Assembly: GCA_944325735.1 (NCBI GenBank) | Contig: CALVBI010000002.1 | Span: 558,001 to 622,000, forward strand | Source of the DNA: Candidatus Gastranaerophilales bacterium | GTDB taxonomy: Bacteria; Cyanobacteriota; Vampirovibrionia; Gastranaerophilales; Gastranaerophilaceae | Direction of reading: 5' to 3' | Length of the DNA: 64,000 nucleotides | Shown: piece after piece, positions 18,973 to 24,127 of the stretch | Numbering within the stretch: the first letter of the stretch is position 1 | How the letters are laid out: each line of letters opens with the position of its first letter | Program-made: the position numbers and the translations under genes | The notes under the pieces: generated by a model | Told to the model about the DNA's origin: nothing | Seen by the model: only the letters and a program-made list of their open reading frames with translations | The model's database searches: none

Positions 18973-19596
18973 ATGAAAAGAGCTTTTACCTTAGCTGAGG
19001 TTTTGATAACACTTGGAATTATTGGAGTAGTAGCAGCGTTAACTTTGCCAGGATTAATAACAAATTATCAAAAAAAGGTTGCTGCAGTTAGGCTTGAAAA
19101 ATTTTATACAATTATGAGTCAAGCTGTTATGAGTTGGGTTGCAGAAGATGTTATTGATACTGATACTTTTCAGTTTGATGATAGTGTTGTTAGGAATGGT
19201 GAAAATTCAAAAAATTGGTTTAATTCTACAATAGGAAAATATATTCAGCAAGATTCAATTTTAAATAGCGCTAATAAACAGTCATACTTTGATTCAAAGT
19301 TTGTTGATGGTTCTGGTTTTGTTGCATATATAACATCAAAAGATATTATGCATTTTTTTTATTGTATTGAATATAAATATTGTTTACTTGAAAATTACGA
19401 TGGAAAACATACTTTTTTATTTTCACTAGTTAATGGCAAGTTTATTCCTTCAACAAATTCTCATATTCTAAAAAGTAGATCTCAATTGCTAGACGAGTGT
19501 AAGAATCCACCAAATGGTAATAAATCTACTCGCCATGCATGTGCAAAATTAATCCAAGTTGATGGTTGGAATATTTCCAAAGATTATCCTTGGTAA
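18973..19596 (+). CDS. Type IV pilin-like protein 1
   Basis: A 207-residue prepilin. The short leader MKRA is followed by FTLAEVLITLGIIGVVAALT, giving Phe at +1 and Glu at +5 as needed for prepilin peptidase and N-methylation, inside a hydrophobic assembly helix. The C-terminal globular domain has two cysteine pairs (YCIEYKYC, and DECKN with HACAK), probably disulfides. A GGGGAT ribosome site precedes the ATG. No pilus assembly genes are nearby; this is a stand-alone minor pilin or pseudopilin. It faces the XRE regulator and ends exactly where the PLD gene ends. Confidence 0.88.
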   Translation: MKRAFTLAEVLITLGIIGVVAALTLPGLITNYQKKVAAVRLEKFYTIMSQAVMSWVAEDVIDTDTFQFDDSVVRNGENSKNWFNSTIGKYIQQDSILNSANKQSYFDSKFVDGSGFVAYITSKDIMHFFYCIEYKYCLLENYDGKHTFLFSLVNGKFIPSTNSHILKSRSQLLDECKNPPNGNKSTRHACAKLIQVDGWNISKDYPW

Positions 19597-23217: not shown

Positions 23218-23268
23218 ACTGGAAGATTTATTTATAAATTATATAAAATACAAAGAAAGGAGCTAGAA

Positions 23269-23307
23269 ATGAAAGAATGTAGAAATGTCGGGGGGGGGGC
23301 AATTTAA
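23269..23307 (+). CDS. Short ORF with strong ribosome site ending just after a poly-G tract
   Basis: AGAAAGGAG stands 6 nt before an ATG that opens a 12-codon frame (MKECRNVGGGAI) running through ten G and stopping at 23305-23307. With 11 or 8 G the frame would continue without a stop into the pilin frame at 23370, adding 34 or 33 residues. As read here it is either a switched-off start of the pilin gene or a leader peptide. Confidence 0.45.
   Translation: MKECRNVGGGAI
23290..23299 (+). repeat. Homopolymeric tract of ten G, candidate phase-variation switch
   Basis: Ten consecutive G in a roughly 30% GC genome, placed inside a reading frame and directly before a surface-protein gene. Long G tracts change length by slipped-strand mispairing, as known for Campylobacter contingency loci. 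Confidence 0.7.
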
Positions 23308-23369
23308 AGCTTTCCTGTCTTGATTATCAATGGGTTGAAAAAGAGATAACAAAATGTTATATTAGTGAT

Positions 23370-24074
23370 ATGATACATCACTATAAAAAAGAAAAAGGGT
23401 TTACACTCGCAGAGATTTTAATAACATTAGGAGTAATTGGAGTTGTTGCAGCTTTAACTTTACCTAGTTTAGTTAATAAATTTAAAGTAAAACAGTTACA
23501 GACTGCTTTTATGCGTACAAGTAGTATAATTCAAAGTGTTTTAAATGAAACAGCAGTAGAATTTGGTTATGCAAGTTTTAAAGATATAAATTCATTATGT
23601 GCTGGATTGACTACTGCTGAAAATAGTGCTTGTAAATCGAAATATAATGAGCTGTTTGAAAATATAAATGATTTTTATGCTTCTAGATTTCGTGTTATTA
23701 ATACATTACAAAATGAAGATGTAAGAAAATATCCATTGAGTAATTATTCTAATGAAACACAAACAAGCTATATTAGTATTTATGGTGCTGGTGATATTTT
23801 TTGTTTAGCTGATGGTGCTTGTGTTACAAAACTTCTATTTTTTTATCACAATCCTGCAGATGGAATATCTCTAACTTTTGATACAAATGGTCCTCTTAGA
23901 GGTCCTAATAGATATGGTTATGATGTCTTTTTATATAATACTGGGTCTTGGACTAAATTATGTTCTAAAAAACAAGATGGCGGAATATATAATGGTAGAG
24001 GATGTTATGAGTATGCACTAAAAGATATAAATCCTGATGATAATTCTAAAGGATATTGGTCAAGCTTGTATTAA
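23370..24074 (+). CDS. Type IV pilin-like protein 2
   Basis: 234 residues from the ATG at 23370. The leader MIHHYKKEKG ends in the Gly needed for cleavage and is followed by FTLAEILITLGVIGVVAALT with Glu at +5. The globular part has cysteine pairs (LCAGLTTAENSACK, FCLADGAC, LCSKK, GRGCYE). The ATG at 23370 has no Shine-Dalgarno site or good -10 box, whereas the upstream ATG at 23269 has an excellent one, so the true start may be upstream through the G tract, with this copy out of frame. A bidirectional terminator follows. Confidence 0.82.
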   Translation: MIHHYKKEKGFTLAEILITLGVIGVVAALTLPSLVNKFKVKQLQTAFMRTSSIIQSVLNETAVEFGYASFKDINSLCAGLTTAENSACKSKYNELFENINDFYASRFRVINTLQNEDVRKYPLSNYSNETQTSYISIYGAGDIFCLADGACVTKLLFFYHNPADGISLTFDTNGPLRGPNRYGYDVFLYNTGSWTKLCSKKQDGGIYNGRGCYEYALKDINPDDNSKGYWSSLY

Positions 24075-24090
24075 TAAAAATAGTTAAAAT

Positions 24091-24122
24091 AAAAAAGTGG
24101 GTATTAATTAACCCACTTTTTT
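24091..24122. terminator. Bidirectional terminator between pilin 2 and the SRP RNA
   Basis: Stem GTGGGT/ACCCAC flanked by an A run and a T run, so it works for the pilin on the plus strand and for the SRP RNA on the minus strand. Confidence 0.85.
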
Positions 24123-24127
24123 ATTTT

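Follow-up and report, generated by a model that had tools for sequence, protein, structure and literature searches.

A ten-G tract ahead of a type IV pilin-like gene of a Gastranaerophilales bacterium, probably one of about 77 slipped-strand phase-variation switches in its genome

The poly-G contingency loci of Campylobacter and Neisseria carry a homopolymer in the 5' coding region, act by frame switching, affect surface structures and are found at many loci per genome. At the type IV pilin gene pilE of Neisseria, an upstream G4 element drives gene conversion from silent copies, and the orientation of this element matters. An intragenic G-tract switch has also been studied experimentally for the sortase-dependent pili of Bifidobacterium breve UCC2003, where the parts of the report consulted give G10 as the reference state and G9 as the ON state (PMC9187656). 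The same parts describe a second ORF in which there is no active initiation, and a population of which a fraction is ON (PMC9187656). With regard to Gastranaerophilales, no paper was found that connects this group with phase variation, and the papers pairing it with pilins or type IV pili give no sign of tracts in their titles and abstracts.

The locus described here lies on contig CALVBI010000002.1 of assembly GCA_944325735.1, in a stretch of 64,000 nt that was analysed as a whole and is referred to as the window (G000:C2:558001-622000, where G000 is the source genome). The only run of at least eight G in the window is a G10 tract on the forward strand (23290-23299), and shuffled sequence is expected to hold 0.01 matches to G8, in agreement with the first-pass annotation, which had called such a run very unlikely by chance. 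The Shine-Dalgarno sequence and the start that it had placed ahead of the tract were located as claimed: AGAAAGGAG at 23254-23262 (+) is followed by an ATG at 23269, which opens a zero-frame leader ORF (23269-23307, +; MKECRNV-GGG-AI, encoded product MKECRNVGGGAI) that enters the tract and stops after 12 codons at a TAA (23305-23307). About 70 paralogous loci have the same arrangement of Shine-Dalgarno sequence, ATG and tract. Between the tract and an inner ATG at 23370, the pilin frame is open throughout (23300-23369, +; NLKLSCLDYQWVEKEITKCYISD). With 11 G, the 21 nt before the tract, the tract itself and these 70 nt make 102 nt, so that 34 codons are joined in frame ahead of the inner ATG, and with 8 G the number is 33; recomputation thus gave the same residue counts as the first reading. 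A change of one base therefore connects or disconnects the upstream start and the pilin.

The pilin frame (23370-24074, +) encodes a type IV pilin-like protein of 234 aa, beginning MIHHYKKEKG/FTLAEI, which matches the Pfam family N_methyl (PF07963, E=3.6e-6) and contains the prepilin cleavage and methylation motif G/F-T-L-x-E. Four matches over cut-off to PF00437, the family of pilus and secretion ATPases, point to type IV pilus assembly machinery in the same genome. Downstream of the gene lies a terminator-like hairpin (24086-24127) that was scanned on the reverse strand and has a near-symmetrical stem. The scan for terminator-like structures also flagged a possible G-strand stem-loop, GGGGGGGC-AATTTAAA-GCTTTCCT (23293-23316, +), which includes the end of the run and a GCYY motif that is conserved at pilin tracts.

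The source genome, of 1.94 Mb, contains about 108 N_methyl pilin-like genes and 77 tracts of at least nine G. Out of its 78 runs of at least eight G, 73 are exactly G10, 76 are directly preceded by a C, and 76 open straight into an intact prepilin frame, 55 of them as G10 on the coding strand and 21 as C10. The proposal to look for tracts at other pilin genes of the genome was thus answered by 76 pilins that have them, and the excess of N_methyl matches leaves about 30 pilins without a tract, including the one at 18973 of the window. At G10 loci with a scorable Shine-Dalgarno start, the pilin is one base out of frame in 68 of 69 cases, being restored by the gain of one nucleotide or the loss of two, and this rule holds although the run begins in codon phase 0, 1 or 2 depending on the gene. 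The same need was found at G10 in 28 of 29 loci in the sampled stretches of genome G004 and in 33 of 34 loci of G026. The zero frame of G-type loci ends within a few codons. Moreover, 95 of 175 loci in four genomes have short leaders without any ATG, GTG or TTG between the tract and the cleavage site, which leaves the upstream start, read through the tract, as the sole option for their translation. Among the long-leader loci, several (for example L076, L092 and L100) carry HSEG...KAGLLRQKSRNDR or SGQAARLGFT, dispersed repeats that seem to have been inserted in frame between the tract and the cleavage site. At another locus, L071 (G000:C1:174645), a tract leader in a dead frame is followed by a pilin with a separate Shine-Dalgarno sequence and ATG, which looks as if tract control had been lost naturally. 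The loci were examined in stretches of sequence surrounding the tracts.

Across 33 genomes of the genus, 2019 runs of at least nine G were counted, of which 148 have nine, 1621 have ten, 150 have eleven and 100 are longer, so that lengths of 9 and 11 are equally common and G11 accounts for about 7% of the tracts. Up to about 176 tracts of at least nine G occur in one congener, and congeners hold the same pilin repertoire. Ten G leave the pilin one base out and eleven place it in frame: the C-G11-C pilin loci were in frame in 11 of 12 cases drawn from many species, 4 of 4 in G026 and 4 of 4 in G031 (these sets partly overlap), as was one G8 locus. The orthologue of the window gene in genome G015, with 84% protein identity, has G11 and a GTG start, and reads without interruption into the pilin. 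It has ATA at the position of the inner ATG, which bears on the possibility, raised beforehand as one that would speak against switching, of homologues starting at the equivalent of 23370; this homologue reads through from the upstream start, a result in favour of the first reading. Between G015 and the source genome, where the G015 stretches were chosen partly for tracts other than ten and the comparison is one between species, 5 of 13 orthologue pairs differ by one G without compensation, the window gene included (11 versus 10). Same-locus length polymorphism, as known from contingency loci, is thus present between species.

With regard to the encoded proteins, 195 of 275 substitutions in the pilin cores fall at third positions, and the cores are under purifying selection. 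The same codon-position test on the leader peptide gave no third-position excess and hence no visible purifying selection, a result that says nothing on translation of the ON frame since the leader is removed from prepilins. A search with a single exact pattern across genome contigs returned four loci only, all in Candidatus Gastranaerophilales MAGs, and no further copies of the locus were found in the viral contigs and phages searched. In the stretches sampled from genome G002 (L224-L228), the coding strands of other genes contain runs of 9-15 G, and several of these genes are of glycan type by sequence. The runs have neither the GCY motif nor the strand rule described below, and 42 of the 74 tracts of at least nine G in this genome are 12 or longer; judging from sequence, this is the ordinary picture of contingency loci. 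Genome G034, from another genus of the family, has pilin leaders with G11 (L284-L288); two that share a downstream leader differ, one being in frame and the other not, and on its contig C5 the tract orientation is mixed.

The tracts follow a strand rule that is independent of gene direction, with G10 in codirectional genes and C10 in head-on genes. Adjacent tracts on a contig have the same orientation in 69 of 71 pairs in the source genome, 65 of 66 in G004 and 10 of 11 checked pairs in G032, each exception being a single switch point. By GC skew, the G strand of the tracts is the G-rich strand in the large blocks C1a, C1b, C2a, C3 and C4, which suggests that it is the leading strand; the skew sign is absent in the small blocks C2b, C5 and C6, which have one tract each. 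The dnaA gene was considered as an origin marker and set aside, as it lies at C3:173k (G000:C3:173321-173824, L259), away from both regions where polarity and skew switch, and polarity was judged by GC skew instead.

A second shared feature is the GCYY motif, which follows the tract on the G strand for either gene direction. A G-C-Y is found 7-12 nt past the C after the run in 97-100% of the sense pilin tracts and in 71-100% of the antisense ones, compared with 11-13% of control GGC sites and 33% of nine scorable non-pilin tracts in G002. Base pairing of this motif with the end of the run is possible and would enclose a loop of 8-10 nt. The folding energy of the C, the G10 and the following 20 nt was no better than that of shuffles, although energy is unfit as a test for such a stem-loop since a G10 pairs with any pyrimidine run; in the stem-loop comparison, enrichment was confined to a fixed closing C-G pair and to the pyrimidine run that follows it. 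A sequence recognised by a protein is therefore an equally possible explanation of the motif. Leader segments differ wholly between some otherwise orthologous loci (G015_C1_1582 and G000_C1_348937; G004_C59_80855 and G026_C2_78718), which suggests exchange at the tract site. Two loci of G004 have tandem tract units within one leader: in L211 (G004:C70:15690-15830; 15737/15763) a G9 and a G10 lie about 17 nt apart, and L223 (G004:C52:84590-84740) has tandemly duplicated units within a single pilin leader. Tentatively, and with doubt outweighing confidence, the tracts might be oriented DNA cassettes, C-G10-C-N(7-10)-GCYY, placed at pilin 5' ends with G on the presumed leading strand and able, on the lagging-strand template, to form a stem-loop between the G run and GCYY. 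Such cassettes would determine slippage and a modal length of 10, one step from ON, through an action at the replication fork, and would perhaps promote leader exchange between paralogues, as a dedicated replication-coupled diversification system of about 75-150 pilins.

The reading that we favour, with a probability of roughly two in three, is that the tract serves as a switch for slipped-strand phase variation, and that about 77 such switches in this genome span a whole pilin repertoire. Translation would begin at the upstream ATG (23269); with 10 G the frame would terminate at once, while with 11 (or 8) G it would pass via the N-terminal leader into the prepilin, for which KG/FTLAE would be the site of prepilin peptidase cleavage. 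Tract length would change at random through slippage during replication, and any one cell would then make only a few, randomly chosen pilins out of a large repertoire. Phase variation by slippage would explain the frame rule, the one-base differences between orthologues and the equal counts of 9 and 11. The layout, the genome-wide rule, the one-base differences and the selection on pilin cores are observed; what we infer is slippage within one population, the resulting expression, and its use for surface variation in the gut. Against switching, tract length is more uniform (96% G10 in G026) than expected of freely slipping tracts, and MutL is present in the genome, which makes intact mismatch repair probable. 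The uniformity of the mode at 10 may represent a population consensus at mutational equilibrium.

The main rival is programmed slippage at a fixed G10 or C10, in which ribosomes (-1) or RNA polymerase (+1 nt) would slip and provide a low constant dose of each pilin with no genetic switching. The extreme uniformity at 10 fits this model, as do the conserved slippery run with its conserved out-of-frame join, the need for one same shift in each of the three codon phases and in G-type as well as C-type genes, the early stops of the zero frame in G-type loci, and a stem-loop that is possible on G-type mRNA right after the run. However, this stem-loop lies on the G strand only and is missing from the mRNA of C-type genes, so a stimulatory mRNA element common to all members was not found, nor is the folding energy better than that of shuffles. 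Furthermore, in-frame C-G11-C loci occur in most genomes, G11 runs make up the share of tracts given above, orthologue lengths shift without compensation, and the strict strand polarity of the tracts in the DNA has no reason under a ribosomal model; programmed slippage thus seems unlikely. A true length of 11 that assemblies under-call as 10, with the genes simply ON, would account for an ON state always exactly one base away, homopolymers being error-prone. Nevertheless, of the 29 assemblies with G10, most have it as the dominant length despite their very different fragmentation, and runs of G9, G11 and G12-15 are present in those same assemblies, which makes such an artefact highly improbable.

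The long-leader class, to which the window gene belongs, calls for a different alternative, in which an inner promoter and a leaderless or inner start would serve to make the pilin, with the tract leader ORF as a regulatory or vestigial add-on. As had been stated at the outset, no Shine-Dalgarno sequence precedes the ATG at 23370. The accompanying statement that there is no leaderless promoter did not hold, given that a promoter-like element, TTGAAA (23335)-17-TGTTATATT with an extended TG and TATATT (23335-23363, +), is embedded in the leader coding region and would place its +1 at about 23370, the A of the ATG. Taken alone, the match in the window is not significant, with 7 promoter-like sites found and 6.8 expected. 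Across unique long leaders, the arrangement TTGNNA-16/17-TG-TATAAT-N6-codon is nevertheless present in 33 of 75, compared with 1.5% of shuffles, and its -35 keeps the spacing in two different codon phases. In 15 of these 33, an ATG stands at the expected +1 (+7 from the -10), and the separate pilin start at C1:174645 also agrees with inner initiation. Conversely, the other 18 of 33 have GTA, ATA, ATT, GTT or GTG at that position, the window orthologue having ATA, and the short-leader loci offer no inner start; we therefore doubt this account for the class. Returning to phase variation, the promoter-like element and the suited ATG count against strict switching at the window locus, where some tract-independent expression may take place, unlike at short-leader loci, and tract control may be partial. 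The earlier suggestion of a phase-variable pilin with an off copy is thus supported in its core, a frame joined or cut off by tract length, as seen across the 76 pilins and in several congeners, whereas a strictly OFF state at G10 is doubtful for this gene.

If phase variation is right, an uncultured gut lineage would have one of the largest sets of such switches known to us, about 77 in this genome, with nearly all of them on one surface-protein family and nearly all one base from ON, and a commensal could with them vary its surface combinatorially. It would also offer a way to test whether the replication strand controls contingency tracts. Gene calls for tract pilins are likely to be wrong, with starts set downstream of the tract or with genes that seem broken.

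Compared with the contingency loci of Campylobacter and Neisseria, the layout is alike in its 5' coding homopolymer, its frame switch and its many loci per genome, but those systems have mixed tract lengths and diverse genes, whereas the tracts here share one length and one orientation and belong to one protein family. The likeness to Neisseria pilE lies in a G-rich element at type IV pilin genes, in an orientation that matters and in pilin copies that swap segments. In contrast to pilE, the run here lies within the coding sequence and determines the frame, and the leader swaps between orthologues give no more than a hint of gene conversion. B. breve UCC2003, whose pilus switch is close to the present one as a precedent in function, is likewise a gut commensal, in which, as far as the consulted parts of the report go, a G10/G11 reference tract splits a pilus gene into two ORFs and read-through is one base away (PMC9187656). 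It differs in having two loci per genome and sortase pili, and those parts report no strand polarity rule (PMC9187656), whereas in the system described here the type IV pilin-like genes concerned number about 77, a genome can have up to about 176 tracts, the length is uniformly G10, and the tracts follow a strand rule and have a motif on their 3' side.
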